Assembly: GCA_964036195.1 (NCBI GenBank)
Contig: OZ038450.1
Location: 31,911,194 to 31,975,193 of the forward strand
Reading direction: 5' to 3'
Length of the DNA: 64,000 nucleotides
Origin: Sphaerolaimus hirsutus
Lineage: Eukaryota; Nematoda; Chromadorea; Monhysterida; Sphaerolaimidae
Shown: positions 4,901 to 58,652 of the stretch, in pieces
Position numbering within the stretch: position 1 is the first letter of the stretch
Layout: each line of letters starts with the position of its first letter
The notes under the pieces: model-generated
Seen by the model: the letters and a program-made list of their open reading frames with translations, nothing else
What the model was told of the DNA's origin: nothing
The model's database searches: none
Translations under genes and position numbers: made by a program

Positions 4901-7900
4901 GAACTTTTGGAACGGAAGTCCCCATATAGACTATCATTCATCTTTGGACAAACTAAACTTTGGGCCATCACACAGGAAGAAGCATGTACAAAACAGGGTG
5001 GTACTTGTCGATTCCAAAATACATGCATAGGCTGCAACGATAAGCCTGGAGGCAGGCTTTCCGCGAGATTCGGGTTATTTTGGTATACCACGTAACACGC
5101 TTATAATTCCATCTGTAACCCGTGCGCACACGTCTTTCAGTTAATTACGTAAAAAGAGGTCTCCTGGAAATGGATACCTAACCCGTCTAACGCGCAAATG
5201 AGCGCGTGCTAAGAAAATCGATTTTTAAAACACACGCAACAAGGCGGGTGATACATATTTGTTGACCTCGTTATTTAGTGTGGAGCGTGTACTACAAAAA
5301 CGTATCCCCCGTCTGTTTATTTGAGAAACCCAGAAAAGCGTGGTATACCAAGGTTATATACCACGTATGCTGTATTCGGGGGTGAGTAAAAAATATGTGA
5401 CAAATACATATACTTTGAAAAATATTCAGTATTTACACCAACTGTGACCTCCCTCATGACCTGCTGCTGCAAACTGAATTTTATTGAGTGATTAGGTGAG
5501 CAAAGCATGTGAAAAACTGTGTACATAAAATCGTTACTAATCTACTAATTGGTGCACTGAGTTGATTAATTTAATAATTTGTCACAGTGCATTTCTAATT
5601 GCCAGATAAGTGGTAATTATCCCCCCCCCATTGTTGCTGTGAACTACATTCAATTGAGTGATTAAGGTGATCAAATCATGTGAAAAAATGTGTACATGAA
5701 ATTATTAATTATCTACTAATTGGTGCACTGAGTTAAAAAATCATTTCATCACAATGCATTTCTAATCGCCAGATAAGTGGTAATTATCCCCTCATGCTGC
5801 TGTGAACTACCTACATTTAATTGAGCGATTAGGGTGATCAAACCATGAGCAAAAATGTTCAAGCAAAAAGCAAAATTAAATAATCACAATAATTGATTAT
5901 TGATGATCAAATCATTCAAAAGTTGAAATGCATAACTCAAAATGTCAGTGTGTGGTGTCTCATTTCAATGTACATAGCACCATAAACATCCATAAACATC
6001 TACAGGTGCCATTTAACTTCATCTGCGCAGTCCGCACAGTCAGAGTTGCTAAAATACTCTAAATTTTGGATAACAAAAAGGATATTAGGAAAACAGAAAA
6101 CTGTTTAGTTATTCAAGGATATTTTTGAGAAATCTTGCTCCACAAAAAAACATATTCATTTAAAATGCGTATTTTTGAGTTTTAAAATACAATTTGGGTA
6201 AAAAGAATAAACCATGGTTCAGTACTTTAACAACTCTGGTTGTCCCAAGGTTTTGTGAAGATGCATAGTGCTGTGCTGATTATCGCGCATTTGAATATAT
6301 GGAACAGTAAACAAAAAAATGTTGCTACATACTCCCAGTTGCGCCCTGTAAAGTGTAAAGTCAAGTGTCAAATGCCATGCAAATTTGTCAAATGCCATGC
6401 AAATTTGTCAAATGTCATGCAAAAAGTCACAATTTAACAAGTGGCACAATATTTGTTTTGTTTGTATGACAAAATTTTGTTTTACATTTTACATGACATT
6501 TGACATTACAGTGTACACATGCAGAACTGAAAAGGTTTGCTATGATTATACTCTTTTTCTGTTTACTTATAACACGTCTAACGCGTAAAAAAATTTTCAT
6601 CGTGGTAGGACAAATCAATATAACCCGAATTCTTCCAAATGATGCGTGTTAGTGAACCCAGCTAACACGCTAAATCGTTTGACCCCTGTTGCGCTCACAC
6701 CACATAACGCGTACTGTGTCGCGTTAGTGGAAATCAATACCACGCAACTAATTACTAGAGCGGGTTAAACAAAATGCTGTTCGCGTGGCAGTTTACCACG
6801 TAAGTATATCGCGGGGTATACTTTCGCGGACAGCCTGCCTGGAGGATGCCCCAAACAGCCAGGAGCCGTCAAGTCGGTTTACACAATGGCCCCAAGGCCA
6901 ATAGAGTATACTCAATTTTCAAGTATACTCGAGTATACTCAAGTATTTTCAAATAAAGTATACTCAATTTTCAAGTATACTCAAGTATACTGAAGTATTT
7001 TCAAATAAAGTATACACAATTTTCAAGTATACTCAAGTATACTCGAGTATTTTCAAATAAAGTATACTCAAGTAAAGTCTTGATTTTTGAGGTGTACCTG
7101 GGGCACGTTCCGCAAGTTGAGAAGTGAAATAGCAAAAGCAAAGATAAATTACTTGATATTTATATTTTTTAGTTCGCTTTTGTCAATTTAATTGCCATTT
7201 CACCTCACCTTTGACATACTTCACTTTTGCAATTCTACTATTACTTCTCCACTTGCGGAACTGGGCCCTGTTCCCCACTGAAACAATTCTGAACTTAATC
7301 GCAGGTGCTGCGTGAATGACGCAGACAGAGCGATACCAGGTAAACAATAACGGGGGTGCACTGATACGCGCATCTGCCCGTTACGCACATTTGCCCGTTT
7401 TTTTCACTTGACACCTTTTCAAGTGATTTTCAGATATGAGTAAAGTGAAAAAAGTTGCGCAATGACATTAGTGAACTTTTTTCACTTCACTCATATCTGA
7501 AAATCACTTGAAAATGTGTCAAGTGAAAAAAAAACAGTGAAAAAAAGCCAGTTTTCACTGTTTTTCACTTATTTTTCACTTTTTCACTTATCGGGCAGAT
7601 GTGCGTATCAGGCCTGCCCCAACAATAACGATCACGATTTACGATAACAGTAAAAATTTTGTACTATAATTAAGACAAAAAGTGTTTAAAAAGGCCACAC
7701 CCAACATTCAGATTTCGAAATAACACAAAGGCCGTCAAAACACCACAACAAAAGGAAAAAAAGCGCAACAGTAGATACAATAGTGTTGCACTACACTGTA
7801 ACAAATACAGCTGGTGCCACCCCCAAGCCCTGTAAAATGCCCTGTAAACGTCAAATGCCATGCAAAGTGTTTAAAGTCATGTAAAATGATCTGGCAAACA

Positions 7901-10900
7901 CACATTTGACATTTTCCAGGGCATTTCACAAGACTTTATACACTTTGCATGACATTTGACACTTTCCATGGCATTTTACAGGGTCTGGGAGTGCCCCCTG
8001 AACAAGCACTCAGAGTGCTAAACGATAGAAAGCTAAGTGCGCACTACGTGGTTGCCAGAAATGGCACCATTTACCAACTTGTGAAAGAAACTGACAGGGC
8101 ATGGCATGCAGGTGGGTGAATTTAACAAATTGAAAAATGATTTAATATAAGTTAAAAATAGGTAAATAGCAGAGTTGTTAGAGTTACTGAACTTTTTTCA
8201 AAAGTATATGTAATGGTGAGTATTTTATTTTTACTCACCACAAAGTATAGAAAATGTAAAATACTTTTTTTACTCGTACTAATGCGTAAATGTGAGTAAA
8301 ATACTTTTTCCCAAGGAAAATGTATTTTTACACTGATTTTTACATGTGAGAGTGAGTGTTACACTGAAAGACACAATATATCTCATTTTTTAGTGATTAT
8401 TGTTTACTTTTTAGAAAAATGATATGATTTCTTTAAAACTTTCTTATTTTAGCAGCAGAAAATTGTGATTTTAGAAACAAAAATACATTTTCTCTGTACG
8501 CGTTTACCAAATGTACGCGTAAAAGTAAGTACATTACTTTTTGAAAAAGTATATGTAAATGTATTACCGCGTACTCGCGTACTCGCGTACGCGTATTTTT
8601 CGAGTAAATGTACTAACATTTTAACAACTGTGGTAAACAGGCGAGTCACTCAACCCGCAATTATCTGTTTTACCGCGATATTAAATGAAAATAAGCTGTA
8701 GGCTACGTCAACTAGCGATTTTGAGGGTCAAGGATTTTGAAGGATTTTGATTTTGTACCCGCGACCCCCCCAGAAAAATGTTCAGCTATCAATCCCTCTG
8801 GAGGAGCGATTTGATACCGCATTTCTTCTAATAGAACGGCACCTCCAATAGAACGGCAGGTTTTGGCACTTTTTTGCATTCACGAAATTAATAGAATGGC
8901 AGCCTCCAATAGAACGGCACCTCCAATAGAACGGCAGGTAGAAATTACGTGGGAAGAGTGTCAGAACACACAAATATTAGAAAAATGGGTGGTGAGAACA
9001 TCCAAGGTGTTCATTACTATGATTTGGGGTTTTTTTACATTGGGTTTTGTTTGAATTGATGCTCTAATAGTAAAATATTGTTCATTAAAACCACTATCTT
9101 TCGTTCAAATAAAAAATGTCTGAAAAATATTAGTAAAAAGATATAACGGCAGCCTCCAATAGAACAGCAGGTAAAAAAGTTGACAAAAAAATAGAACGGC
9201 GCTCTTCTATCCAGCCCCCGCAGGGGTCAAAATGTTGGAGATGCCTGATGATATTAAATATAATATTACTTGATAAGCACCTTCATAAATCATGATTTGA
9301 TCAGCCTAGAACAAACAGTAAATTTCACCGTCATGTACCGTATTTCCTCGAAATACCCCCCTCGAAATAACCCCCCTCAAAATGGGCACTATGAATTTGT
9401 GATTCGGGAAATGGATAACAGACGTTCAAAACACTTACTGTGTTACGTTAGAACATCGTTTATACCATCTACATCCTTATATAAGGCTGTAAACACTTAT
9501 ATGTGGTGGTTATTGTTGCATTTTTCACGTTATTCTCTCAAAATTTTCACTCTGAAAAAATAAGGAAATTTTCACTCGAGGAAATACGGTAATCATGCAT
9601 ACTAGATCATGTTTTTTCTTGCTGTTGCGGGTCGTTAGGGGCCGTGCCAGACCCTGTAAAATGTTGAAAAACATGAAAAGTGCTTATAGTCATGTAAAAT
9701 GGCAAACATACGCATGTCATTTGACATTTTACAGGGACTGGAATCGGGCCCAGGGAAATTTGTTAAATGCAGTCACGTAGACGAGGCGCCATGGAACAAA
9801 TATCCCAACAACGCTGATAACAAAAAAATCTGATCTAATGTGCATGATTTCAATCTTAAAATTGATGTTTGTCCTAGCCCTGGGCAATGTGACTGATCAA
9901 GAGCGATGCATCACACTTAAAGTTCGTACAGTACTTTTGTCAGAGGAAATCTAAGCGTATTTACTGAGTACTCAACTACCGTATACGTATTTTTTGAGTA
10001 AACGTAAATACCGTATTTCCTCGAAATACCCCCAGGGGGTTTATTTGTTCAGAGTGGAAATTGTGAGGGGGGGGGGGATTATTTCGAGGGGGTCTTTTTC
10101 AAGGGGGGCTTATTATTTCGTCAGAAATTTTCACGAAATTCATAGTAAAGGGTATGCTTTTATATACCCAAAACAGGTAATCAGCGTGTCCAAGCAACAT
10201 ATTTTGACATATCAACGTCCATCACTTCACAAACTAGTATATGTGTAGCTGCGATGCAAACTGCGACCAATATATACATCATGTACATTGCATACATCAC
10301 TCACGTACACAATTCCAGACGGGGGTATTTCGAGGTGGGGGTTTATTTTTTTCCCCAGTTCAAAAACACCTGGGGTGGGGGGGGGAGGGGGTAAATCAAG
10401 GGGGTAATTCAAGGGGGGGTAAATCGAGGAAATACGGTACCTACGTTTCAACAATTATGGATAAAAACTGGTAATCCAACACAGGAAGCAGTACGTGGCC
10501 AAAAAAACCGAGTCGCGGCGATGTAAATTCTTACTCGATTGGCATTGAGATAGAGAACAATGGCTATGAGCCATTCTGCAGACAGCAGATGGGTTCCCTG
10601 GTGCCAGATTCGATTTGCCCGACACCATTTTTGGGCAACCCGATAAATTTCGTTCACACAAGTTCCCGCAGGCTGATTTGTCAATGTCGTAGGAGGGATG
10701 GCCAAAAAAACGTTTTTGTTGTTTTTTTGGCCATCCCTCCTCTGACATTGACAAATCGGCCAACCATTGTTGTTTTTTAAAAGATTTTAATTAAAGCTGC
10801 GTTTACACTGGCACGTGTGACGACAAAATTTTTTTGGGCTTTCAACTTTCGTTATGTGACGAAAATTGAATATATGTTGTGTCAGATACCTAGATCTCGA

Positions 10901-13900
10901 TCACTCTTTTTGCCTAGGACAAACATAAATTTTTATATATGACGTGATCATACACAATAAAACAAACAAGAAAATTTGTCGTCACAAGTTGTCGGTTCGA
11001 GTTGTTCCCGGGAGCCTCGTTAACGAGGCTCCCGGGAACAACTCGAACCGACAACCTGTGACGACAAAAATTTTGTTTCGTTTTATTGTGTATGATAACG
11101 TCATATAAAAAAATTTATGTTTGTCCTAGGCAGAAAGAGTGATCGAGATCTAGGTGTCTGACACAACAATTATTCAATTTTCGTGACATAAAGAAAGTTG
11201 AAAGCCCAAAAAGTTTTTGTCGTCACACGTGTCAGTGTAAACGCCGCTTAAAACGTTTTTTTAATAAAGCGGGGTTTTTGAAAGCTCATAAATATGGTTA
11301 TGGGTCAACATATACAGGTATACAGGGATATTCTAGATTTAGACCCTTCGGGGGTAGATAGATAGCTGGGCAGTTTGGACGGGGGGGGGGGGGGGTTACC
11401 CACCCCAACCCCCTTAGGAGACCCCTGCAGGTATATCAGACAATTGCCAGTACTTTGTTATGTTATATAGGGCCACAGAATGGCTGTGAAGCCATGGGAT
11501 TACATTACAAGTAGTGATTTTTGTCAAGAATATCAGTTTTACATTGACCTATTGTGTAAAGTGCCGGCTAATATAATTGAGCTTTCGGCTCGAAATTGCG
11601 ATATCGTTAAATTACTCACCCCCTAAGCGAAGCTTGGCCCTGTGGCCTGGGTTGGAGTTAGCCCCAGGTTTTGTCTACTCGCACCCCTGGGGGGACCCCT
11701 GTGGCTGCACCCCCTCAGCCACAGGGGCGCCTCCCGTAAATTTTTTTCATTTTTGAGTTGGTCAATATAATCAAGCTTTTTGCAGCATTTTTTTTGCTCG
11801 CTTTACACGGAATGTGTAAAGCGAGCAAAGCTATCCGATTTGGATACTTCAGGTGTAGAAACTCACGCTCTTTCTTTTGAGCGTGGATTCAAGCCCTGTA
11901 TCTAAAAAAAATCGAATTATTTAAGTTATCGCTGATTTAAAAAAATCAGTCTATTGTTACTGAATCTACAGGGTGGGGGTAAAAATTTAAGTGTGGGGGC
12001 GTGAAAACTTAATGATGGGGTTGAAAATTTGACAAAGTATACAGAAAACTATGGCGCACATTTTGAATACATCACCCCCACACATCTGTACACCCAGAAA
12101 AAACTTTCGTAAGATAAAATTTGAACTTTAAACTAACGTTTTATTGTCCTCCTCCGCCCCTGGACGAGATAACGTTAGTTTAAATTTCAAATTTTATTTT
12201 ACGAAAGTTTTTTCTGTGTGTACAGATGTGTGGGGGTGATGTATTCAAAATGTGCGCCATAGTTTTCTGTATACTATGTCAAATTTTCAACCCCCATCAT
12301 TAAGTTTTCACCCTCCCATAGTTAAATATTTACCCCCACCCTGTAGATTCAGTAACGATAGACTGATTTTTTTGAATTCAGCGATAACTTTAAAAAAATT
12401 GCGATTTTGTTTTGATACAGGGCTTGAATCCACGCTCAAACAAAAGAGCGTGAATTTCTCTTCCAGACGTAACAATTTCATACTGATTGCGCATTGTGTG
12501 TAAAGCGCGCAAAAAAAATGTCCGTTAACAGCTCATTTATATCAGCCAGGCAAAAAATGAAAAATTTTTATGGGGGGCGCCCCTGCGGCCGCATCATAGC
12601 AGCCACGGGGGTCCCCCCGGGGGTGCTTCTAGTCAAGTCCTGGGGGCAGTTGCATATCGGGCCGCTTGGCCCAAATCCTCTTGGGGCGTGAGTTATATAT
12701 GTTTAAAAACAGATGTCGTGAAAAGCTCAATTATATTAGCCGGCTCTTTACATTGCATTTTGTTGAACATTCATGACTTCAAGTGAAGTTGGGCATTGAA
12801 AAGTGTTTAAATTAGGTTGCAATAGAAGGCTCATACAGTGGCAGTGATTTTTCACACTCTACAAGTATATGGGAGCACAGTGACTGGGTATTTTACACTA
12901 CACTAACATATTACAGCTTATTATGACACAATAGCATGAACAAATGGAAGCTTTCACACTAAAAATGCCTCAAAACCAATTAAAACAACCACCAATGGTA
13001 ACGGGTATGTGCAATTGCGTGCTTGCGTGCAAAAAATGCAAAATACCCACTAGTGCATAAGTACAAAAAAAATTGGCTGATGTTTTTTTTAAAAAAATGG
13101 TTTCGATACCATGTTTGTTTTTTAAGCATTTTTTAAAAACAAACAGTTAAAAAACATCGGCCATCCCTAGTCATAGTGTAGTATTTGATTGAATTCCTAC
13201 ATACTACAATAGGTAGTGATGTAAAAGCGCTATGGCGCTTGGTGCCACATTTGCTCAGGCACAGGGACGTATCCAGGATTTTTGAGCGGGGGGGGGGGGC
13301 TGCTTGTTTACGGAGGCCGGCGAGCGGAGGGGGGGGCTCAGCCCCCCCCCCCCCTAAAATTTTACCTACAGAGTGGCGGAATGGCGCCATGGCACTGGCG
13401 CCAACGCCATGGAACGCTGTGTATGTATGTAAATATACATACAAATACAGCAAACAGCACACAATTGACTATATTTATACCGATTTTGGCCACAGGGAGC
13501 AAATATGCTGATAATACATCACCTGTGCTGAAAAATACTTGTAATGCGCAAAAAAAATTTTACGCTGGCGTTGAAAAAGTGGCATTTTCCGGCCACTTTC
13601 TGGTCTCACCCCAGGAAGGGGGGGGGGCTGCTGCCCCCCCCCCCCCGCCCCCCCTTGGATACGGCCCTGCTCAGGCACCATTGCCGATCGGTGCTAATGG
13701 TGAGAAATGTGTCGTCGCTTTTTACATCATTAATCATATTTACGTAACCAGGTGTAGGTGAAAAAAAACCATCATTATTTACCTAGTTGCAAAGATGACT
13801 TTCTCCGATACCAGACATTTAAAATTAATCGGTCCACCCGAAGAACACGTAGGGCAAATTGAAATGGACCCCTGGTCCACCTGGTGGAAAATATCAAGGG

Positions 13901-14280
13901 AAATCACCCTGACATCGTCGCAGAAAACATTGTGGGTCACCAGGTGCCTCTCCCAGACCCTGTAAAATGTCTAATGTCATGCAATGTGTCAAACGGCATG
14001 TAAAATGCCCTGTAAAATGACAAGCGTTTGTTTGCCAATTCCTCGGCATTTTACATTACACTTGACATTTTACAGGGTCTGGGAGTGCCCCCAGGATGTA
14101 GCAAATGGCAGGAAGCTTGACCCAGGGAAGTTTTTTAATTGGACCTATTTGAGGGACCATGGCATCCCAAATTATCACGCTAAGGAAAAAGAGGAAAAAG
14201 AAACAACAGTAGCCGCCATTCACACCACAGGATTTGGGGGTGGGCTTTTGGGTGGGTGTTTTGGATTTTTTTGTTTTTGA
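1826..14280 (+). CDS. Secreted N-acetylmuramoyl-L-alanine amidase (Amidase_2/AmpD type), multi-exon, interrupted by transposons
   Basis: Predicted to cleave the amide between MurNAc and L-Ala of peptidoglycan outside the cell. Exons: 1826-1909, 2647-2763, 4976-5052 plus 6846-6872, 7305-7339, 7772-7813, 7992-8111, 10485-10602 plus 13877-13943, and 14095-14280. They total 873 nt with every phase agreeing. Order: signal peptide; two Cys modules; then Amidase_2 with LHYT (first Zn His), SAHYVVARNGTIYQLV, AWHAG, NSYSIGIEIEN, NIVGHQ (second His) and GRKLDPG (Lys and Zn Asp). All AmpD-type ligands are present. The tail after the domain is KE-rich, then Gly/Phe-rich. Two exons carry transposons (5053-6837, 10603-13869) and two interruptions are MITEs. 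This copy is functional only if the insertions are removed at RNA or DNA level; otherwise it is a recently broken allele. Confidence 0.8.
2647..2763 (+). CDS. Amidase exon 2: cysteine module 1
   Basis: 39 codons between TTCCCAG and GTCAGT, phase 0 at both ends. Cysteines sit at C3, C10, C14, C25, C34 and C35 (C-x6-C-x3-C-x10-C-x8-CC) with a GGSC word. The C-GG-C...CC pattern is known from defensin-like modules attached to eukaryotic secreted cell-wall hydrolases. The two modules of this gene share the first and last spacings. Confidence 0.8.
2764..4975. other. Amidase intron with low-complexity DNA
   Basis: Contains T/A-rich tracts built of TTTTATTTTA and TTTTACAAAA words (about 2980-3150 and 3760-3960). 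A degenerate repeat with GGAAATGAAACT-type words lies at 4550-4760. A partial fold-back of the TGTCATGACAATTGACA type lies at 3340-3740. No exon recognised. Confidence 0.5.
4976..6872 (+). CDS. Amidase exon 3 (4976-5052 and 6846-6872): cysteine module 2, split by a transposon
   Basis: The left part follows CACAG and has the pattern C-x6-C-x5-C-x2-C. The right part supplies GGC and the run up to the last Lys, then GTCGGT as donor. The halves join in frame when one copy of the 8-bp duplication CCTGGAGG is kept. The final CC comes from the 35-nt exon at 7305, giving C-x8-CC as in module 1. There is no stop or frameshift in either half. Confidence 0.75.
5053..6837. mobile_element. hAT-like DNA element inserted in amidase exon 3
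   Basis: Ends are CAGGCTTTCCGCGA and TCGCGGACAGCCTG, flanked by the perfect 8-bp duplication CCTGGAGG (5045-5052, 6838-6845). An 8-bp duplication and CAG..CTG ends fit the hAT superfamily. The subterminal regions carry repeated AACACGC/AACGCG words. The 1785-bp body has no transposase, so it is non-autonomous. It contains a piece of the GTAAAATG-type repeat near 6345-6510. Confidence 0.85.
6900..7080. repeat. Tandem repeat of AAGTATACTCAAGTATAC words
   Basis: About three copies of a ~52-bp unit combining AGTATACTCAAGTATAC and TTTTCAAATAAAGTATA. It sits in the intron between the 6872 and 7305 exon ends. Confidence 0.8.
7305..7339 (+). CDS. Amidase exon 4 (35 nt)
   Basis: Bounded by ATCGCAG and GTAAAC, entering in phase 2 and leaving in phase 1. 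It supplies the CC of cysteine module 2 and a short linker ending AIP. Too short for ORF calling, but both phases match its neighbours. Confidence 0.75.
7352..7620. mobile_element. Fold-back element with 9-bp duplication, copy 1
   Basis: Ends are GGGGGTGCACTGATACG and CGTATCAGGCCTGCCCC; the inner arms share GCATCTGCCCG and CACTTGACAC words. It is flanked by the 9-bp duplication AACAATAAC (7343-7351, 7621-7629). 269 bp, non-coding. A second copy lies at 14659-15061 in the opposite orientation. Confidence 0.85.
7772..7813 (+). CDS. Amidase exon 5: first zinc histidine
   Basis: 42 nt after CAACAG, entering in phase 1. It encodes the start of the Amidase_2 domain with IVLHYT; the His is the first expected zinc ligand. 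It ends GCTG|GTGCC, where the GT belongs to the inserted MITE. Confidence 0.75.
7814..7991. mobile_element. Introner-like MITE acting as an amidase intron, copy A
   Basis: The element runs GTGCCAC...CCCTGTAAAATG to CATTTTACAGGG...GTGCCCC (7814-7997), flanked by CTG on both sides (3-bp duplication). Its first two bases can serve as a GT donor. The target copy CTG offers no AG, but GGGAG at 7987-7991 is a frame-keeping acceptor that leaves two extra codons. The interior has TGTCATGCAAAG words shared with copies at 9635 and 36700. Confidence 0.7.
7992..8111 (+). CDS. Amidase exon 6: core strand region
   Basis: 120 nt encoding EQALRVLNDRK, SAHYVVARNG, TIYQLV and DRAWHAG, all typical of Amidase_2. 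The donor is GCAG|GTGGGT, phase 1. The exact 5' edge is uncertain because it lies in the end of the MITE. Confidence 0.8.
8160..8650. repeat. Dispersed repeat with GTAAA-T-ACTTTT words
   Basis: Inverted repeat with ends GTTAGAGTTACTGAAC and TAACAACT and inner GAGTAAAATACTTTT and ACGCGTA words. Relatives occur near 27830-28330 and 29670-30260. Non-coding. Confidence 0.6.
8815..9215. repeat. Repeat with AATAGAACGGCACCTCC words
   Basis: Several direct and inverted copies of TCCAATAGAACGGCA. The left end, CCGCATTTCTTCTAATAG, resembles the CCGTATTT ends of the MITE family. Relatives lie at 27527-28473. Confidence 0.7.
9338..9589. mobile_element. Palindromic MITE, CCGTATTT family, copy 3
   Basis: TA-flanked copy with the same ends as 298-558. 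Its interior shares long stretches with that copy (around GAACATCGTTTATACCATCT), so these two are close relatives. Confidence 0.8.
9630..9762. mobile_element. GTAAAATG MITE copy in an amidase intron
   Basis: Ends CCAGACCCTGTAAAATG and CATTTTACAGGGACTGG, with internal GTCATGTAAAATG. Same family as the elements at 7814 and 13944, here inside the long intron between exons 6 and 7. Confidence 0.65.
10011..10437. mobile_element. Palindromic MITE, CCGTATTT family, copy 4
   Basis: Starts CCGTATTTCCTCGAAATA and ends AAATACGG with TA flanks. G-rich interior; non-coding. Confidence 0.75.
10485..13943 (+). CDS. Amidase exon 7 (10485-10602 and 13877-13943), split by a transposon
   Basis: The left part encodes NSYSIGIEIENNGYEPF, the Amidase_2 block holding the conserved Glu; the right part encodes HLVENIKG and NIVGHQ with the second zinc His. 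They join in frame when one copy of CCCTGGT is kept, reading through one helix as expected for the family. No AG lies at the right junction. A GT-AG alternative exists (donor 10601, acceptor ending 13898) that would keep frame but drop eight residues. Confidence 0.75.
10668..10756. repeat. Short hairpin (GAGGGATGGCCAAAAAAA)
   Basis: Arms of about 35 bp read TTTGTCAATGTC...GGAGGGATGGCCAAAAAAA and the reverse complement, with a ~10-bp loop. It lies inside the 10603 element and creates the antisense ORF there. Confidence 0.75.
10797..11255. repeat. Long fold-back centred on CCTCGTTAACGAGG
   Basis: Arms of about 220 bp. The outer ends are GCGTTTACACTGGCACGTG and CACGTGTCAGTGTAAACGC. The centre near 11026 is a perfect palindrome of the word AACTCGAACCGACA around GGGAGCCTCGTTAACGAGG. 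Non-coding. Confidence 0.85.
11560..12760. repeat. Nested inverted repeat of about 1.2 kb
   Basis: Outer words GCCGGCTAATATAATTGAGC at 11562 and GCTCAATTATATTAGCCGGC at 12727 are complementary. Inner arms pair 11940-12140 (CTACAGGGTGGGGGTAAA) with 12170-12380. Non-coding. Confidence 0.8.
13262..13669. mobile_element. hAT MITE with 8-bp duplication
   Basis: Begins CAGGGACGTATCCAGG and ends TTGGATACGGCCCTG, flanked by the perfect 8-bp duplication CTCAGGCA (13254-13261, 13670-13677). Both features are hAT hallmarks. It is 408 bp, with G- and C-rich subterminal runs. A relative lies at 22078. ORFs across it are chance. Confidence 0.9.
13944..14094. mobile_element. Introner-like MITE acting as an amidase intron, copy B
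   Basis: The element GTGCCTCTCCCAGACCC to GGGTCTGGGAGTGCCCC lies between two CAG copies (3-bp duplication). The element's GT is the splice donor and the right CAG copy is the acceptor, giving a 151-bp GT-AG intron that restores the conserved GHQ-DVA junction exactly. Interior words are CCTGTAAAATG and TGTCATGCAA. Confidence 0.8.
14095..14280 (+). CDS. Amidase exon 8: catalytic end and tail
   Basis: 62 codons including TGA. Begins DVANGRKLDPG with the expected catalytic Lys and zinc Asp, then FFNWTYLRDHGI, the usual end of the domain. After that come a KEKEEKE run and a Gly/Phe-rich tail ending CFGFFCF. Confidence 0.85.
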   Translation, partial: DVANGRKLDPGKFFNWTYLRDHGIPNYHAKEKEEKETTVAAIHTTGFGGGLLGGCFGFFCF

Positions 14281-15764: not shown

Positions 15765-17861
15765 CATAGGGTATTTTGGGGGTAGCCTTTTAGGGGGGTC
15801 GGCCCGCGAGCACGTGTGTTTATAACTCGGGAACGGCTTGGTGGAAAATGTTGAAATTTGGATATAATATGGTTTCAGGTCGGGGCCAATTCCCAGGAAA
15901 TTTCGCTACGACCTCCCTGACTGGAGATAGGGTGGGTCTATAAAAGCTACTTTTTGCGAATTTTTTTGGGTGTCCCCAGAACATGAAAAATTTGTATATC
16001 AATAACTCGACCATTTCTAAGCCGTTTTGGACCATTCAACACTTAAAATGATCGGCACAACCAGTAGATTCCGTTTTTGTGGTCTGATCAGTGATGCCGA
16101 TATTCCTTATATTTATTTGACCCAGTTTTACAACACGAAAAATAAACTTTTCTGAACATGCTATCATATAGTTTAGACAATGAGAATTCATATTTTAAAA
16201 AATGAGTTCAATATCTCTTTCCGATTTTCACCAATGAACACTTAAAATTATCAGAATGACATGGAGATTTCATTTTTATTCACAGTTAAGTTATATGCAT
16301 TTTCATTATGCTAATTTCATTCAAGAGTTTGGATTATTTTCTTGTACGGCAAATCTGATAAAATATACAGATAATTTATGAATAAAAATGAAATCTCCAT
16401 GTCATTCTCATAATTTTAAGTGTTTATTGGTGCAAATCGGCTAAGAAATGGTTGAGATATGGAGTTTTGAAGTTGCATGCATTGTTCTTCATGCGGTTAT
16501 TTATGTGGATGGGAGAAAAAAGTTTGCAGCGTTATAACTTTTGATTGGAAAGAGATATTGAACTCATTTTTGTTTTATATGAATTCTCATTGTCTAAAGT
16601 ATATGATAGCATGTTCAGAAAAGTTTATTTTTCGTGTTGTAACACCGGGTGAAATCAATATAAGGAATATAGGCATCACTAATCAGACCACAAAAACGGA
16701 ATCTACAGGTTGTGCCGATCATTTTAAGTGTTTAACAGTATATTTGCATATGAAATTTTGCATGTTCTGGACGACACCCAAAAATTTCGCAATAGACCAC
16801 CTTTTTATAGACCCACCCTATCTCCAGTCAGGGGGGGTCATAGAAAAATTTTCTCAGACTTGTAACTAGCCCGAGAGTATAGCGATCGGTAACCTTCCCG
16901 ATCGGTAAGCTCTCGATCGGTAAGCCAAAGTATGTCGATGGGTAAGCCACACAAAGTCTAACAAAGTATCTCAATTGGTAACCCATGGTATATCGATTGT
17001 AAAGCCAATGTCTCGATCGGTAAGCCGCAATACAAACATACCACACGCATACATACATACATATTTACATACGTATGGAGTAATTAGATGCAGCGGCAAG
17101 ATAGTAGACTTTTTGGCACACTCTGGATGGAGAAATGAAGTGGATCAAGGATATTTCGCCCCACCGCTCCACCACAGTATGGCACCCACAGTGTACTTGC
17201 TGCACCGCAGCTTTTGCCTTGGCAGAGTGGCGTCGATGCGCTGCACCAGCACCTTCAGCACAATGTGTCTATTGAGCTCGATTAGTGACCATGGCATTTT
17301 ACAGGGCTTTTTACATGACTTTTGACACGTTGCATGACATTTTACAGGTATAAATTGATCATTTTTACACTACATCTACATATAAATATTTTTAGTATAT
17401 TTGCGCACGCGTGATTATTAATAATGCTTATGTACACATTGGCGCCGCGTATTTTTACTTCTTTCTTCGCAGTTCGTACATTTGATGATGAAAGGCGCCC
17501 AGACATAATTGCCTCATGTATTGTTTGTACATATTTACCTCAGTAATTATTCCATGTATTACACGTATGTACGCTCGCGGCTTACCAATCGAGATAGTCG
17601 GGTTAACAATCGATACACTGTGGCTTACCGATCGAGTCAAAAAAAAATTGTCTGCGGCTTACCCATCGACACACTTTGGCTTACCCATCGCCATACTTTG
17701 GCTTACCGATCAAGAGCTTACCGATCGGGATTCCCTCACTAGCCCCGACCTGAAACCATAGTATACCCAAATTTCAACATTTTTCACCAAGCCATTCCCG
17801 AGTTATAAACACGTGCTCGCGGGCCGACCCCCCTAAAATGCTACCCCCAAAATACCCTATG
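15765..17861. mobile_element. 2.1-kb long-TIR element with 8-bp duplication
   Basis: Ends CATAGGGTATTTTGGGGG and the complement; arms match for over 130 bp. Flanked by GTCACAAT (15757-15764, 17862-17869). An inner inverted pair joins 16020-16440 and 16390-16750 (GTGCCGATCATTTTAAGTG words). Runs of CGATCGGTAAGCC at 16870-17030 face complements at 17575-17745. The ORF at 16477-16869 falls in this palindromic part and has no recognisable domain. Confidence 0.85.
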
Positions 17862-31025: not shown

Positions 31026-31129
31026 TGGGCTCTGTATCATGTGTTAAGGGGTATTTGTATCCACCATCCACCACAGTTGTTAATGCATACATATTTACGT
31101 TTACTCAAAAAGTCTGCATACTCGGGTAC

Positions 31130-34100
31130 CTGAACCGAAATTAGGGAGACCAAAAAGAACAGACAAGGAACCAGAAAGGCGGGGAGTAAGATGGGGTAAC
31201 AAACTGACAATTTTCTTTCAAAATGTAAGATCAGCACGGAAAAAGCATGAACAAATTGCAGACATGCTAGCAGATGGGCGCTATGATGTGGCCATCCTAG
31301 GGGAAGCTAACGCTAGAACACGACTAGACACGATGGAGTCGCCGGATTACAACCTAACCTTGATACGAAAGCCGGAATCGAACAACGGTGGCTTTCTTGT
31401 ATATATAAAGAAATCAGTTTCTGCATATATGCAAGGCCCACTTACAACAGGGGACACAGAGAGCAATACGGTGGCAATGACAATCTCCACTCTTGCAGGA
31501 AAACTTGACATTGTAGCTGTCTATCTTCTGGATCAAGGGCGGATACAAAGAGACAGAGAATTAAGGGATGTCAACTCGCAAATCCTGGAGACGATAGGAA
31601 ACAGAATTATATGCAACCGTAGTTCCGGGAGAGATACAATTGTAATCGGGGATTTCAACGGGGCCCTAGGACAAGAGCACTTTGGGTCGGGTCGATGTTC
31701 AGTCACACCAAACCGTAACGGGAGGCTCCTCAAAGGATGGATATCAGCAATGGACATGGCAGTTCTGGACGACAAAATCGGGCAGTGGTGGACTTTTGAA
31801 TCGGGCTATGCGAAGACAAGAATTGATCACTGCATAATGGACAATCAAGCGGACATGGCTACGGCGACGGTCAAAAACTTAGGACACGGAAACAGCCCAA
31901 TAATGTCTGACCACAGTGGACTTTTGGTGGAGATATCCATGGAGTCAGGGGGAGAAAAAGAGCAAAAGTCAATGCCAACATGTAGGGGGTGGTCAATCAG
32001 AGGAAAGGAGAAATCCACAGCGTTTCTGAGGGAGATAGAGAATGTCATCAATCCAACGAATCCCCCATCCAGCTATGACGCCCTGCTTGAATTTTTACAG
32101 CAGTGGGCGAAATGCTGGTTTGGGGGAAAACAGCGGAAAAGGAAAGAAACAAAGTATGGCAAGAAGATACAAGAGATCAAACGATTGCTTAAGCAAAAAA
32201 GACGCGCTTTACATGAAGGTAGACTTGGTATACTGGAATACCGAGAATACCGAAAAAGGGGACTAGGAGAAATCAGACAACAAGAGATATCCGCACATGA
32301 TGACAAACTAGAGCAAATAATGGAAAATGAGCTGCAGTACGGAATCGAGAACACAAATCTGTACAAGATGGCCCAGAAACTACGAGAGGCTGATGTTAAA
32401 TACCCAATGCTCAAAATCGGAAATAGACCATGCAAAGATGACGCGGAACTGAAACACGTTCTAAACGAATTTTGGAAGCGAATACAAGCACCGAATCCAG
32501 CGAAAGGGAATTTCAGAACAGACAGTGGAATGATAGGAATTATCGACAAGGCCCTGGCTGACAAACTGGATACGGAGATTACAACAGCGGAAACACAAGA
32601 AGCATGCAAGCGACTAAAGCTGGGAAAATCGGCTGGGACGACAGGGATATCACACAAGATGTTGAGGATGCCGGGACTGAACCTAGTTACCACACTGAAA
32701 AACCAAATGAACCGGTGGTTTAGTGGCCAGGAAAAAATACCAAGACGCGCGCAAACGTGTAAACTGGTCCTGCTACATAAAAAGGGCTCAAAATCAGACG
32801 TGAACAACTACAGAACAGTAGGGATACAATGCAATATCCTAAAGCTGTACTGTTCAATCTTAAACAAACGACTGATGGATGGTTTTGAATGCAACAATGC
32901 CTTTGGTGATATGCAAGCAGGATTCAGGGCAAACAGGAGAACAACAGACAACCACGTGATATTACAGGGATGTCTGGCGGAAACAAATCGACTGTCAGCA
33001 TGTTTTGTGGATGCAGTGAAAGCGTTTGACAGAGTTGATCGGGGACGCCTCTGGGTGAAGTTAAGAGACTACGGATACGGCAATAATCTGTGCAAGGCAA
33101 TAGAAAGCACCTACACGGATCAAAAATGCTATCTGCAGTACAACGAAGTCTGCACGGATGAACTTGACTACCCGCTAGGGGTGCGGCAGGGCTGCTGCTT
33201 AAGTCCTACACTATATGTGCTGTACATGGCCGATCTACGAACAAAACTGGAAAGAAGCAGACTTGGTGCTAAATTAGGACAAGAGTGAATACCAGCCGGG
33301 TTCTTTGTGGACGACGTGGTTCTCATGGCAAATAACGATGTGGATCTGCAGAAGATAATGGACATCTTCACTGAGTGGAGCTATGAATGGGGGATTGGGA
33401 TCAGTGAACAAAAAAGCATGATCCTACACTTCAGAAGAAGTGCGGACGCAAACAGAGAGTGGTACCTGGGGATAGGGATAGATGGAAATAAGCAAATCAT
33501 AAGGGAATGTGACGAGACCAAATATCTGGGCATTCTTCTATGCAGTGGCCGTGATCCATTTCAAAAACAAAAAAGCGGTTATATGGATAAGCTAACAAAG
33601 GGGAAATTCCTTGCAAAAGAAGTCACAAAACACAGTCAAAGACAAATATGGGCGCTTAATATGCTCTGGGGGGCCTACGTAGCCAGCACAGTGATGTACG
33701 GCGTCGAGATCACAGGACTCTCAAAATCTGCGCTAAAACAAATGACGTCCTCACAGATGGGACTATATCGACAAGTGGGGAATGTAGGAAAACACATGTC
33801 AAATAAGCTGCTGGGAATAGATTGGAATATTAGGACAATGGAATGCTGGTACAAATACAGCATAATTAGATACAATGACTACCTGAAATCTGAAAAAGCC
33901 TCAAAAACGACCAAATTAGCAGCGAAAATCTGGGGGGAGCAAAAAGGGGCAGTGGGTGCAACACGAAAAAACTCACCAGAAGGGCGGGCAAAAACGGCAA
34001 AATCAGAGATGAATCTGGGGGACACGCAAACACAGGGGAAGGATAAAATTCTAACCGCCTGTAAACACTACGGGTGGGAGACTGGACTGAAACCACAAGT

Positions 34101-35344
34101 ACATGCAACAAGAAGTATACAAAAAGAAAACCAAGTATTACGGGAAATCACACCTCTATTGCCAGAAACCCTACAGGTGACTGAACATAGATGGTTCGCC
34201 GGGAGACACGGCTGGTTACCAAATACACAGCAAATACGCTTTAGGCAAAACAATATAAGACAATGGATAAACTGTCCGTTATGCGAATCGCTGGGGTGGT
34301 CATTCTGGATGACAATGTCTCATTACCTGGGACAGTGTCAACATCCGACGGTGACACTCTGGCGCACAGAGTGGGCTAGGTCGATTAGTGAAGACTGTTG
34401 CAGCCGACGATGCGGCAAAGATAGTGCAGCATCCGAGGCGGAGACAGCATTAGTGACGCGACAAACTAGCCATAGCATTGCGAGACAGATTCCGTGCACG
34501 GTCTTTGATGCCGCAGTATGTCATAAAATGCGTATTGATGCGTCGCAACACCTGGGTAATCTGGCCAGAGTACTTGAAAATTGGGGGGAACGCAGCGACG
34601 GTTCATTGTTCGCGAGCGGGATCCCCAGTTAGCCAGTACGCTGACCTTGGATGCAAAGAAGATCCTTGTATACTTACAATGTACAAAACTGTATCAACTT
34701 GCAAAGTGTTTTACAATTCTAATTTTGGTATCAGTGTGCGACACAACAAGGCGCAATGATGATGTAGATTTCTGGTAATGATGTGAGGGATGGAAAGTGA
34801 AAAAGGTGATAAATGTGACTCTTGGAAAGATGAGTGGTAAAATGAAGTAGGAAACGGCGAGCAAATTGGAGAAATCTCATGTTTCAACTCAAACCTGGGA
34901 ACTAAAAACACATCAAACCTGTTTCAATAATGTCAATAATGACAAAAGAGTATGATTTTCTGTGACTAAGAGGACTTTTTAACGATGACTATGAGCATGA
35001 TTTTCACTTAACATCAAAATGTTTGATCTACACTTTATTCTTTTATGTTCTGTTTTGTGTTCAAATGTCGTTAACTGTTTTTAAACACGGACAAACCCGG
35101 GTCGTGGGGTGCTAGAGTGTTTTATTTTTCGGTGTTCCTGGCAATGTTGTCTGCCGCCCACTCTATAGTAAGGTAGTAAGTAGTCTAGGTGTTTTTTCTA
35201 TATTCTCCCACAACTTCTGTGTATACAAAGCGCACAAACTCACCTATTAGGACCGCAAATAGGAGTAATCGATGGGTATGAATGTTGTATTTTACTTGCA
35301 TTTGGCTTTTGAGGTCTGAGACAAGTAAACCTAATTGAATTGAA
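31130..35344 (+). mobile_element. Non-LTR retrotransposon (APE-type LINE), 5' truncated
   Basis: Inserted in a dispersed repeat. TCGGGTAC occurs on both sides (31122-31129, 35345-35352), and the joined flanks resemble the intact repeat word ACTCGAGTACAGAGTAAA at 27855. The 3' end carries AATTGAATTGAA, a short tandem tail common in LINEs. The element starts just upstream of the endonuclease domain, so any ORF1 is missing. The 3' UTR is about 34633-35344. Confidence 0.75.
31132..34632 (+). pseudogene. LINE polyprotein: AP endonuclease, reverse transcriptase, CCHC; one in-frame stop
   Basis: The open frame begins before the ATG at 31264. The endonuclease shows FFQNVRSA, AILGEANART, VIGDFNGALG, RIDHCIMD and MSDHSGLL. 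The reverse transcriptase shows NNYRTVGIQ, MQAGFRANRRTTDNHVI, FVDAVKAFDRVDR (catalytic Asp), GVRQGCCLSPTLYVLYMADL and FFVDDVVLMA (catalytic DD). A C-terminal zinc knuckle reads CPLC, then H-x4-C (HYLGQC). A single TGA (33286-33288) separates the QGCCLSP and FVDD blocks with no frameshift, so one point mutation silences the copy. The clade is not certain; it is not Penelope or LTR type. Confidence 0.85.
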
Positions 35345-36690: not shown

Positions 36691-36699
36691 TCGCATCTT

Positions 36700-36885
36700 T
36701 CCAGGGAATTTTACACGAATTTAGACACTTTGCATGACATTTGACATTTTACAGGGCATTTCACATGAATTAAGACACTTTACATGACATTTTACATTTT
36801 ACATGAATTTAGAGACTTCCCATGACATTTGACATTTTACAGGGCATTTTACACGAATTTAGAGACTTGACAAGTTAGTAAGGAT
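36700..36885. repeat. TGACATTTTACAGGGCATTTTACA repeat
   Basis: Three tandem-like copies of ATTTTACAGGGCATTT and TTAGACACTTTGCATGACA. Same vocabulary as the GTAAAATG MITE family. Confidence 0.6.
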
Positions 36886-51249: not shown

Positions 51250-51525
51250 TCAAGTGCATGTACTCTGTGCCCTGTACCCCACTAATGCGCCCTGTACCCG
51301 TTTCTGTGCCCTGTACCCCTGTGCCCCATCAATTTTCCTGATGCTATCATTTCGACTTTTGATCCTATCATTTTGGTATTTTTCAGAGCATTTTACGCAT
51401 GACATTTTACGTATATCATTTTGGTATTTTTCAGAGCATTTTACGCATGACATTTTACGTATGAGCATTTTATGTATGACATTTTACAGGGCATTTTCCT
51501 GACATTTTACAGGTAGGTACTTGAG
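51250..51525. repeat. Short tandem repeats (CTGTACCCC; TTTTACGTATATCATTTTGG)
   Basis: CCCTGTACCCC words at 51268-51330, then two copies of ATTTTGGTATTTTTCAGAGC and several TGACATTTTAC words. No gene. Confidence 0.65.
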
Positions 51526-54827: not shown

Positions 54828-55373
54828 TTATTTGTGTATAACATTTCTAGAACCAGTAGACAATTTCTCCATTGGAATTGTCTTGAAAAGTAATAAAAAT
54901 AAATCTTTAATGTTATGTCTTTTTATGAGAGAAATTGTTTGCAAAACTGCATGCTTAGATTTTATCACCGTATCACACATTAACATGATTTTCAAAAATA
55001 CGAGGGCGAATAAGCCGCATGTATCTGCAGCTTTGTTTTGTATCACATTTTCATTTATTGAAAAAATACAATTGTGTGAAAATTGCATTTTTATATCCTT
55101 TATTACTCGCTGTGATAAATTTTTCCTACCAAGTGAATCAAATATGAATATATGATTGTGTGCAATTCTATATAATGAAATAAAATGTCCCCACGTGACT
55201 TCTGGGTAATTTAAGAAGCAAACAGCCCCTTTACCCACAAAAATTTTACCAATTTCGCCATCATCTAAATTAACGCATTTTACACTATTTTTCAAAATCG
55301 AATCTTCACTGATTATTATTTTGATGTCTAGCACCTCCATGACATCCTCCTCCTCCTCCTCCTCCTTGTTCAA
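54828..55373 (-). CDS. Adenain-like cysteine protease
   Basis: 181 codons. The pattern of adenovirus-type (C5/C48-like) maturation proteases is visible: WGHF with the catalytic His, IFIFDSLG with the Asp about 18 residues on, VIQNK with the oxyanion Gln, and DTCGLFAL with the catalytic Cys. In Polintons such proteases are thought to mature capsid proteins. The N-terminus is very acidic (EEEEEED). Starts 14 nt after the capsid gene stop and converges with the plus-strand gene ending at 54826. Confidence 0.8.
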   Translation of the reverse strand: MNKEEEEEEDVMEVLDIKIIISEDSILKNSVKCVNLDDGEIGKIFVGKGAVCFLNYPEVTWGHFISLYRIAHNHIFIFDSLGRKNLSQRVIKDIKMQFSHNCIFSINENVIQNKAADTCGLFALVFLKIMLMCDTVIKSKHAVLQTISLIKRHNIKDLFLLLFKTIPMEKLSTGSRNVIHK

Positions 55374-55387
55374 TCACCACGTTGCTA

Positions 55388-56815
55388 CTAGTAATTGGCG
55401 TTCGATAAAATAGTGCGGTCAGCGTGTAAATGTAATGACGCAATTGAAAAACAATAGACCAAAATGACTAAACCGTCAGCGGGGATAGGGTTATGAAATG
55501 AAAAATCGAGACCTAGAGAACCGACTGAAAATAAATCAGACATGGAATCATCAACTTTACATACAACGGGGTCAAAACTAAGTGCAAACATGTTGCTTTT
55601 GTACTCTGAAAATGTAAGATTATTTTCCACATTGAAATTTTTCCTCAAACTACGGCATAATTCTCTAAATGCTAAAGCATATCCGCGGTCGGTTGCGTTA
55701 GCTGCATCGGTATCGAAGAAAAAGGGTACTATTGGGTGTCGGGCTGCACCAAATAGCATAGTTGCACGTTCAATTTTATTAGTTGGAAAACTAAATTTTG
55801 CTTTAGCGACATCTTGAGTTAAATAATTATCACCACTTAACATTTGTACTATACAAAAACTAGGTAATTTTCCTACATATATAGCTTGTTGAGATGTTTG
55901 TTTTAAACCACCAGGTACATTAACCCGTATGACTCGCGTATTAAGGAAATGAAGTTTGAGAGGGCGAGTTAAAGCCGCCTTCTCTACTGCGACAGCGCAC
56001 TCAGCACTAGGTTGCAAATGTAATGCAAACAATTGAATTCTCTTAACTCGAATTTTATAATCTCTTACAATATCTACTAGAGTTGGATCGAAACATTCCA
56101 GACAAAATTGATCACTATGCCTTACTAATTCGAATGTAAGGCTGTAACCGGCGGGCCAGTAGCGACGGGTTGAAAAAAGATCCAATGCTAACTTTGAAAA
56201 AGTTATACATGTTCTACTATTATTTATTTGTTGCGCTCTTTTTATGAAAGTTGCACTATCATCATTTCTAATTTTTGTATAATCTTCATTGAAAAATCCT
56301 TCTACCTCTAACTCTTTGTAGGTTTTATCCTGATTTGTAAGTAATTTATTTTTCATATGTACTAAATATGAATAATTGTCTGTGACATCAACGAGTAAAG
56401 CATCTTTACTAAAAAGTTTTACTGTACGCCAACAGGTAGCACCAAAACCGGGTATTAATGCCACCTTATCATTCAGATTTACTTGCACATCATCAACGGA
56501 TATTATGGGGGGGATGTCAGTTCCATTAGCATTGACTACTTGAAATTCCATGCGAACAAAAACATTTGATAAATCTACATAATATTGACTCGAATCTAAT
56601 GTCCACGTCCATGACGTGTTGAATTCGTTGTGTTGTATAGATAATGGTATTTCTAAAAGTTGCGATTGGACAAATGTGGCGTCTATTTGAGGAGCTGAAA
56701 AATATGATAGCTCCGCAGGTGTCACAAATGATGACGTTGGATCAGCCTTCTGCTTTAAAATGGTCTGAGGTTGAAATGTGGCTGATCCATCTATATTAGC
56801 TGTAGATGCCGCCAT
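55388..56815 (-). CDS. Major capsid protein candidate (double jelly-roll)
   Basis: 475 codons. Position, length and beta-rich composition fit the Polinton major capsid protein, which builds trimeric capsomers. The N-terminal part has the sort of text seen in this family: SYFSAPQIDATFVQSQLLEI, then WTWTLDSSQYYVDL and MEFQVVNANG. The C-terminal half includes KFSFPTNKIERATMLFGAA, then FDPVVCKVDDSM. It is on the shorter side for the family. A good TATA box lies upstream. A structure prediction would settle the assignment. Confidence 0.7.
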   Translation of the reverse strand: MAASTANIDGSATFQPQTILKQKADPTSSFVTPAELSYFSAPQIDATFVQSQLLEIPLSIQHNEFNTSWTWTLDSSQYYVDLSNVFVRMEFQVVNANGTDIPPIISVDDVQVNLNDKVALIPGFGATCWRTVKLFSKDALLVDVTDNYSYLVHMKNKLLTNQDKTYKELEVEGFFNEDYTKIRNDDSATFIKRAQQINNSRTCITFSKLALDLFSTRRYWPAGYSLTFELVRHSDQFCLECFDPTLVDIVRDYKIRVKRIQLFALHLQPSAECAVAVEKAALTRPLKLHFLNTRVIRVNVPGGLKQTSQQAIYVGKLPSFCIVQMLSGDNYLTQDVAKAKFSFPTNKIERATMLFGAARHPIVPFFFDTDAANATDRGYALAFRELCRSLRKNFNVENNLTFSEYKSNMFALSFDPVVCKVDDSMSDLFSVGSLGLDFSFHNPIPADGLVILVYCFSIASLHLHADRTILSNANY

Positions 56816-56836
56816 TATTAATAAAAGTATAGACTC

Positions 56837-56877
56837 AACTGACTAAAAATTGCGATTGATCAATCATTTATATATAA
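56837..56877 (-). promoter_or_regulatory. Promoter of the capsid gene
   Basis: Minus-strand TATATATAAA (56877-56868) and TCAGTT (56842-56837), about 35 nt apart, followed by the ATG at 56815. TCAGT is the common arthropod-type initiator word, although that alone does not name the host. Confidence 0.55.
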
Positions 56878-57306
56878 TTAGCGGGGGAACACTGGAATCG
56901 TTACTGGGAACTTCTTTTTTGAATGTTTTTTACGACCTTTACCTTTCCGTCGACCCATACCTTTTGATAAATTTTTCCACATATTTAAGCGTTTACGCCC
57001 CCGCCGTCGACCCTTACCCTTCGCTTTACTACCTTTTCCAATAACTTGATTATTTTTCTTCTTCTTTTTTCTTTTATTCTTTACATTTTCATCACTTTTG
57101 ATAGGTACTTGATTTTCAGTAGTTACAATAGGTTCAGCTAAAGACCTAGTAATGTGTATGTCGGGTGCTCCCAACCCCACCATACCCATAAAATCAGATT
57201 TTTTTTCAATATCATTTTGGTAAAATGATGTATCTGGCATTTTAAAAACTCCATAATTATACCTATGTAATTTAGCGCACTCTGCTTCGGCTATCGGATT
57301 ATCCAT
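56878..57306 (-). CDS. Very basic core-like protein
   Basis: 142 codons. The first 75 residues are neutral (KMPDTSFYQNDIEKKSDFMG). The remainder is Lys/Arg-rich, with KNKRKKKKKNNQ and GKGRRRGRKR, and ends VTIPVFPR. Such charge suits DNA binding inside a virion, as in adenovirus core proteins; this is inferred from composition and position next to the capsid genes. Its start lies one base from the stop of the next gene upstream. Confidence 0.6.
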   Translation of the reverse strand: MDNPIAEAECAKLHRYNYGVFKMPDTSFYQNDIEKKSDFMGMVGLGAPDIHITRSLAEPIVTTENQVPIKSDENVKNKRKKKKKNNQVIGKGSKAKGKGRRRGRKRLNMWKNLSKGMGRRKGKGRKKHSKKKFPVTIPVFPR

Positions 57307-57307
57307 T

Positions 57308-58321: not shown

Positions 58322-58652
58322 TTTTATTTTGGGGACGATGCTGGTCCGCTGGTAAAGTGTTTTCTACAATTTTCAAAAATGTCTGAAAAATTTCAATAAA
58401 CCTTTCTTCATTAGGTGATGATGTAAATTTTTGTGTCGTCGCTAAAGTCGTCAAATAAATCAGTACAATAATTATGATCATGCACTGCGTAAAAGATATT
58501 CCCAATTGAAAAATTAGCTTTTTATTTATTGAACATTGGTTTTTCTTCTCTATACCGCCCATAATTAATGGTTCAACGGTGGTCTTTTTATATACCTGAT
58601 CATTCATGATTGTTGATTCTGTTGCTGCCATTTTCCTCGTTAAAACCGGCAT
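58305..58652 (-). CDS. Small single-pass membrane protein
   Basis: 115 codons from the first ATG, or 108 from MAATEST at 58631. One hydrophobic segment (FTQCMIIIIVLIYLTTLA) lies about residue 54-71, with a short cytosolic or virion-internal N-terminus and a soluble tail. Overlaps the end of the integrase gene by 53 nt. Function unknown. Confidence 0.6.
   Translation of the reverse strand: MPVLTRKMAATESTIMNDQVYKKTTVEPLIMGGIEKKNQCSINKKLIFQLGISFTQCMIIIIVLIYLTTLATTQKFTSSPNEERFIEIFQTFLKIVENTLPADQHRPQNKNGSQI

Follow-up and report, generated by a model that had tools for sequence, protein, structure and literature searches.

An amidase gene interrupted by family elements

The window analysed here is a stretch of 64,000 nucleotides from the nematode Sphaerolaimus hirsutus (C1:31911194-31975193, C1 being contig OZ038450.1 of assembly GCA_964036195.1, which comprises 348 Mb in 762 contigs). 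It carries an interrupted gene whose product is an amidase_2/AmpD-like enzyme, an N-acetylmuramoyl-L-alanine amidase. One of the interruptions is the element that we call copy B, a 148-bp sequence at positions 13944-14091 with the inverted ends GTGCCTCTCCCAGACCCTGTAAAATG and CATTTTACAGGGTCTGGGAGTGCCCC. As was originally predicted, copy B lies between two copies of its target CAG (13941-13943 and 14092-14094), and the element together with one CAG makes up a 151-bp GT-AG intron (13944-14094). The donor GT of this intron is formed by the first bases of the element and the acceptor AG by the right copy of the CAG. Its removal restores the coding sequence, with the joined reading ...ENIVGHQ|DVANGRKLDPGKFFNW..., and a conserved amidase motif is regained. 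Copy B and its surroundings are predicted to fold into an RNA hairpin of -76 kcal/mol over 191 nt (z -6.75). On sequence grounds, it is likely in our view that a non-autonomous DNA transposon of the NuwaI kind jumped into an exon of an amidase gene derived from bacteria, and that this insertion, copy B, is spliced out of the pre-mRNA as an intron.

All parts of the gene lie on the forward strand. The first exon starts with the segment at 7714-7813 (...TIVLHYTVTNTA), which was placed by alignment with paralogues and without determination of a start codon. It is followed by copy A, a 184-bp element of the same family (7814-7997) whose 5' end reads GTGCCA and whose target site duplication (TSD) is CTG (7811-7813 and 7998-8000). 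The second CTG leaves TG at the exact 3' end, and the in-frame AG alternative is a GGGAG 9 nt upstream. The exon resumes at 8001-8111 (EQALRVLNDRKLSAHYVVARNGTIYQLVKETDRAWHA), as defined by the joined reading and paralogue alignment, and exact removal of copy A restores the frame (IVLHYTVTNTA|EQALRVLNDRK). An ordinary GT-AG intron (GTGGGT...CACAG, 8112-10484) contains a degenerate family copy (9638-9750) with unequal flanking triplets, TTA and CAG. Paralogue comparison defines exon 2 (10485-10600, ...SRGDVNSYSIGIEIENNGYEPFCRQQMGSL), which is followed by a 3274-bp intron (10601-13874) that runs from GTGCCAG after CTG to CCCTG. This intron interrupts the protein at SL|V. Exon 3 (13875-13943, VHLVENIKGNHPDIVAENIVGHQ) was taken from the joined reading and ends in the left CAG of copy B. 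The joined reading and paralogue alignment also define exon 4, which includes the stop codon (14095-14280, DVANGRKLDPGKFFNWTYLRDHGIPNYHAK...). The claim that two copies of one family act as introns of this gene is supported with a qualification: the frame is restored for both, but only copy B follows the GT-AG rule, copy A being inserted in CTG.

The inner end motif of the family matched the window seven times at up to three mismatches, against a mean of 0.01 over 100 shuffles. Further stretches of the CATGACATTTTACA-type inner family repeat, without clear ends, were seen at 36692-36884, 17280-17349 and 51480-51514.

Empty sites and selection in amidase paralogues

Among the best 120 of 4604 protein-database matches to the amidase, all those with a readable taxon were bacterial. 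Because of these matches, we think that the gene probably came from bacteria and started without introns. Four paralogues (P1-P4) lie on the same contig as the window gene. Comparison of the intron-exon structure with these closest relatives, which the original prediction had proposed as a check, revealed that the sites of copies A and B are uninterrupted in P1-P4 (two of which are identical), so that the empty site is present in the genome. The ordinary GT-AG intron, at HA|G, is found at the same position in P1-P3, where it is also GT-AG. At SL|V, where the window gene has its 3274-bp intron, P1-P3 carry a family copy of 189-190 bp with a duplicated CTG, and P4 is uninterrupted.

P1 and P2 share identical exons and an identical SL|V element. 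The amidase paralogues at C1:31846106-31847258 and C1:31906991-31908143, identical in exons and element, point in opposite directions and are separated by about 60 kb. We computed the ratio of nonsynonymous to synonymous divergence (dN/dS) by the Nei-Gojobori method with our own script. P2 and P3 differ by a dS of 0.42 with a dN/dS of 0.27 overall, and the exon 3' of the SL|V element has a dN/dS of 0.27 at a dS of 0.48. The window gene and P2 gave a dN/dS of 0.26 at a dS of 1.3, a rough value as dS exceeds 1. The dN/dS values of 0.25-0.27 suggest that purifying selection on the amidase gene continued after the SL|V insertion. The first 84 bp of the SL|V element are identical between P3 and P2 although synonymous sites differ by 32%, which suggests gene conversion or constraint on the 5' half of the intron.

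A putative NuwaI-like family across the genome

A pattern consisting of CWG and the 26-nt end of the element matched the genome 8055 times at up to two mismatches, and a reversed-pattern control did not match at all. This figure is not a copy number, as a single copy may be counted twice at this threshold, once for each end. Two sets of 57 and 29 elements, in which the triplets on either side are equal, share one repeated element (L114 = L002) and thus provide 85 distinct elements. In the first set, 51 elements came from the end pattern or from similarity and six came with loci fetched through the window or the amidase. The loci of the second set were chosen by similarity to copy A (one through a search with copy B). 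The equal triplets of the 57 elements were CTG in 33 cases and CAG in 24, with no other triplet. CAG or CTG also accounted for 28 of the 29 equal triplets of the second set, in which 11 of 40 loci had no equal pair. Among 116 local copies, 78 target pairs were identical CWG triplets and 14 more differed only at the middle base (CTG/CAG or CAG/CTG). These 14 are the commonest mismatch, which suggests a W-W mismatch at insertion and not later mutation.

The two ends of the family are unlike, with GTGCCASTCCCAGACCC on the left and GGGTCTGGGASTGCCCC on the right, and position 2 of the left end is T in 111 of the 116 copies. The right end read inward, GGGGCA, is a terminal repeat of GGG type, from which the left end, GTGCCA, deviates. 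The NuwaI group of the PHIS superfamily is described as having CWG duplications, GGG terminal repeats and animal hosts including a crustacean (PMC4482050, seen in part). With CWG duplications, and with GGG at its right end only, our family is by its sequence features a putative NuwaI-like PHIS (PIF/Harbinger-type) group of miniature inverted-repeat transposable elements (MITEs). In contrast to that group, its left end reads GTGCC and not GGG, and hence offers a splice donor. Because the ends of the NuwaI group read GGG, the left GT is probably a derived change that created this donor. An intron role does not form part of the description of NuwaI in the portion of that paper available to us, and here no transposase is tied to the ends.

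The PHIS DDE transposase model PF13359 reported 163 matches, many with near-equal scores, and 150 of 306 candidates were scored. No transposase with the family ends was found among the PF13359 matches. It is possible that a PF13359 transposase family (e.g., L115) mobilises the MITE. We rejected the idea of a PHIS transposase that itself carries an introner, the one copy read seeming to have ordinary GT-AG introns.

Insertions within coding exons

Open reading frames (ORFs) across the joined flanks of the elements were scanned for protein families. We found 19 independent insertions that read through on exact removal. A Pfam or NCBIfam model spans the junction in 18 of them, and paralogue alignment does so for the remaining one, copy A. 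At copy A the AmpD model begins at the junction, and continuity comes from the paralogues. In the first set the junction-crossing models were BCKDHA (three insertions), SLC23, OSCP1, LDL-A, an Srx-type receptor, carnitine acyltransferase and CHGN; in the second they were SLC4, a rhodopsin-type receptor, SLC26, a UBA_4 domain, AMP-binding and vinculin. Junctions in XPF (RAD1 family) and in the amidase (SL|V and copy B) were also crossed, by fragments under the whole-protein cut-offs. The gene with the UBA_4 domain is presumably DCUN1D. The SLC4 and SLC23 junctions align without gaps to solved structures, and the BCKDHA junction RGW|WDD does so to Daphnia. The two best named matches of BCKDHA are crustaceans, Notodromas and Daphnia, the first of which is inflated by an internal repeat. 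The COX1 gene has an open frame under genetic codes 4, 5, 9 and 13; it was read by eye with code 5, and of its 120 matches listed, those with a readable taxon were insects at 64-67%. A tunicate or sponge host was rejected. The BCKDHA locus (C1:8333386-8337414) contains three supported family elements and the apparent end of a fourth.

A clear, assignable family match was obtained for 15 of the 38 ORFs of the first set, the rest having none, a weak one or an unassigned one. Of the 19 ORFs in the second set, six were counted, one (PDE) matched weakly and twelve were without a Pfam family. The PDE match was left out as too weak and away from the junction. Likewise, we did not count a reversed copy in CTG within a GDT1-like gene, whose joined frame is open, as the domain stops short of the junction. 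One NCBIfam sirtuin match was not traced to any member. Names that we assigned by eye and take as presumptive only (GBF1, NSUN6, SLC22, SMYD, DCAF1, cadherin and others) were not counted either.

The original prediction asked whether family copies coincide with introns; they lie in exons, as putative introns, well beyond copies A and B. Two features of introners are seen here: multiple similar copies whose ends fall at exon junctions, and an empty site in related genes. The proposal of a new introner family is supported by the many exonic copies and empty sites, but the AG rule applies to only 8 of 19 insertions.

These could instead be plain transposon insertions in exons of genes that are redundant or in decay, whose frame was intact before insertion and from which nothing is spliced. 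Removing a transposon with one TSD copy always restores the frame, and both the amidase and the BCKDHA genes have paralogues, as this explanation would have it. Yet the SL|V element is common to P1-P3, and its site is also used in the window gene, in a family with the low dN/dS values given above. Exons adjoining the supported insertions also keep open frames. Furthermore, one CTG insertion lies in an apparently single gene: an 82-aa query found nothing in the genome besides the two exon pieces of the gene itself. This gene, which we take to be GBF1, had no Pfam or PDB match. We regard dead insertions as an improbable explanation.

Orientation and splice sites

Where forward means that the GT end is upstream relative to gene sense, the 19 insertions comprise eight forward ones in CAG, whose exact ends are GT-AG, eight forward ones in CTG (GT-TG) and three reversed ones in CAG (GG-AG); none is reversed in CTG. 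The GT-AG rule inferred from copy B thus extends to eight insertions including copy B itself, but not to the eight in CTG, copy A and the older SL|V insertion shared by paralogues among them, nor to the three reversed ones. The forward-to-reverse ratio is 16:3 (p=0.0044), and 13:2 (p=0.0074) without four insertions from loci fetched through the window or a gene. Dead insertions would account for the equal numbers of CAG and CTG among forward insertions (8:8), yet leave the strand bias unexpected. A strand rule of this kind speaks for removal at the RNA level and against dead insertions as well as excision from DNA.

Precise somatic excision by a transposase, akin to that of the internal eliminated sequences of ciliates, would fit the combination of terminal inverted repeats (TIRs) and TSDs, the exact junctions and the lack of a preference between AG and TG. 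Some PIF/Harbinger elements are known to excise precisely. However, such removal would be independent of strand, the elements are present in the assembly, and the same genes contain canonical GT-AG introns. We give this explanation very little credence.

Alternatively, the introns may be real, with canonical splice sites that lie within the element and leave a few additional residues in the protein (GGGAG| at -9 nt, or CCT|GTAAAA when reversed). Among CTG insertions, an in-frame AG at -9 nt occurs only where the end reads GGGAG, at copy A and in a G protein-coupled receptor (GPCR) gene (L084); copy B likewise has a -9 AG. The three reversed insertions become GT-AG through a donor 18 nt inside, with six codons added. 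Codon addition is reported for Aureococcus introners (PMC9860276, seen in part). In contrast, ends reading GGGAC lack the -9 AG, and the AG at -19 nt that most of the 19 insertions (7 of the 8 in CTG) possess is out of frame. The SLC4, SLC23 and BCKDHA RGW|WDD proteins, moreover, match their homologues without gaps at the exact junction. We consider internal sites an unlikely answer. A specific form of internal splicing, GTAAAATG...TTTTACAG, was rejected: by our reading of the sequence, it would retain 37 nt and shift the frame.

The continuity of the coding sequence, the strand bias and the signs of selection together argue for splicing of the family elements, and several observations weigh against it. 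The exact 3' end of the CTG insertions (8 of 19) has no AG, and at copy A the duplicated triplet offers none. A scan of acceptors from -60 to +24 and donors from -24 to +29 gave no GT-AG pair in frame for SL|V or for another GPCR insertion (L007). It is possible that TG acceptors are used at CTG insertions, or that splicing there is imperfect, or that these genes decay. The donor is weak and unimproved (GTGCCA), with G at +5 in none of the 116 copies. The interrupted BCKDHA copy may be dispensable, because matches in its paralogue (C2:16744850-16748858) continue across all three insertion sites. The model scores for vinculin, RAD1 and AmpD were under the curated cut-offs. The scanned ORFs were chosen by eye (38 of 115 for the first 57 elements and 19 of 65 for the 29 further ones), and orientation was in sight during the second choice, which may have biased it. 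Finally, joined flanks gave an ORF of at least 120 aa in 32 of 53 exact joins, in 26 and 28 of 53 off-by-one joins and in 300 of 1060 random cuts. Without gene-fetched loci, the numbers were 29 of 47 for exact joins, 24 and 25 off frame, and 274 of 940 for random cuts. Off-by-one joins do nearly as well, and ORF length therefore marks exon-like surroundings and not exactness. We rejected it as a test of exact excision and for this reason turned to the protein-family scan.

Genome-wide counts of exact ends are similarly divided. The left end adjoins CAG 1291 times and CTG 1106 times, and the right end 1277 and 884 times. The excess of CAG at the right end (1277/2161 against 1291/2397, p=0.0004) hints at selection for an AG acceptor. 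Analysed by strand, this bias is clear on one strand only (p of 0.002 and 0.057), and the 116 local copies lend it no support, with seven left-CTG/right-CAG and seven left-CAG/right-CTG pairs (two of these being related loci). Hand pairing of the C1 end lists, which was not scripted, gave 4 versus 0 in favour of such selection, or 4 versus 1 when a 543-bp pair is allowed.

Proposed mechanism and relation to known systems

We propose that an element of the NuwaI kind (PHIS/PIF-Harbinger, CWG target) inserted into the amidase exon and that its left end would provide the GT donor. The 3-bp target duplication would place a CAG before the 5' side and, where the sense strand reads CAG, an AG acceptor at the 3' side; exact removal would therefore restore the coding sequence. 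The inverted ends may form a long hairpin that draws both splice sites together, and the spliceosome would then remove the element from the pre-mRNA. At CTG insertions our best guess is that TG would serve as the 3' splice site, perhaps aided by TTTTACAG 19 nt upstream. By insertion and removal as introns, the family could have spread through coding exons genome-wide. More tentatively, and with somewhat more doubt than confidence, we suggest that a NuwaI-type MITE with thousands of copies evolved a splice donor and that the spliceosome accepts CAG or CTG alike, producing GT-TG introns in bulk, with the inner TTTTACAG and the terminal-repeat hairpin serving recognition and the target duplication serving cleavage.

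The following comparisons draw on the parts of each cited paper that we could see. Introners are reported in only two animal groups, and the main text does not mention Harbinger (Gozashti et al. 2022, PMC9860276). Like those introners, the present family would provide transposon-derived introns with TSDs and TIRs, in which the element contributes one splice site and the TSD the second, and which are concentrated in genes; here, in contrast, TG replaces AG at the exact 3' end in 8 of 19 insertions. TG 3' splice sites in U2 introns are described for 36 human genes, where they act only as alternative sites and an AG lies no more than 28 nt away (Szafranski et al. 2007, PMC2374985). Because human TG acceptors are reported only as partners of such an AG, it is possible by analogy that the TG acceptor here is served by the AG 19 nt upstream. 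An AG is nearby in both systems, whereas here TG would be the frame-keeping site, in many insertions of one family. Introns that break the GT-AG rule also occur among the introner elements of Amoebophrya (PMC7789003), which have direct and inverted repeats and predicted hairpins, and in Fritillaria (PMC13326754). Unlike in both of these, canonical introns coexist with the family here and the 5' GT is near-invariant. Among the papers listed by a search of a literature collection that left out many subscription journals and all bioRxiv preprints, none showed NuwaI and introners together; introners and Harbinger elements occurred together in one paper, on fungi.

The family offers a dense and readable series of animal intron births, with one element, many exon sites and empty paralogues; if the element is removed as a ready-made intron, it would be a direct case of the origin of new introns. 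The CAG/CTG contrast is a natural test of the 3' splice-site requirement. Exact splicing of the CTG copies would mean that the second step tolerates much more than the AG rule has been taken to allow; failing that, the CAG/CTG pair would let selection acting on new introns be measured cleanly.

Other features of the window

Searches detected no RNA families, tRNAs or phage-record matches, and one exact pattern was likewise without a match in viral contigs. On the reverse strand, a run of large ORFs at 54828-61854 has a Polinton-type look, with one ORF that has an ATP-binding-like motif and one that is integrase-like by eye; the five ORFs scanned had no Pfam match at 1e-3. A retrotransposon resembling a long interspersed nuclear element lies on the forward strand at 31084-34632, with endonuclease and reverse transcriptase domains and an interruption by an in-frame stop.

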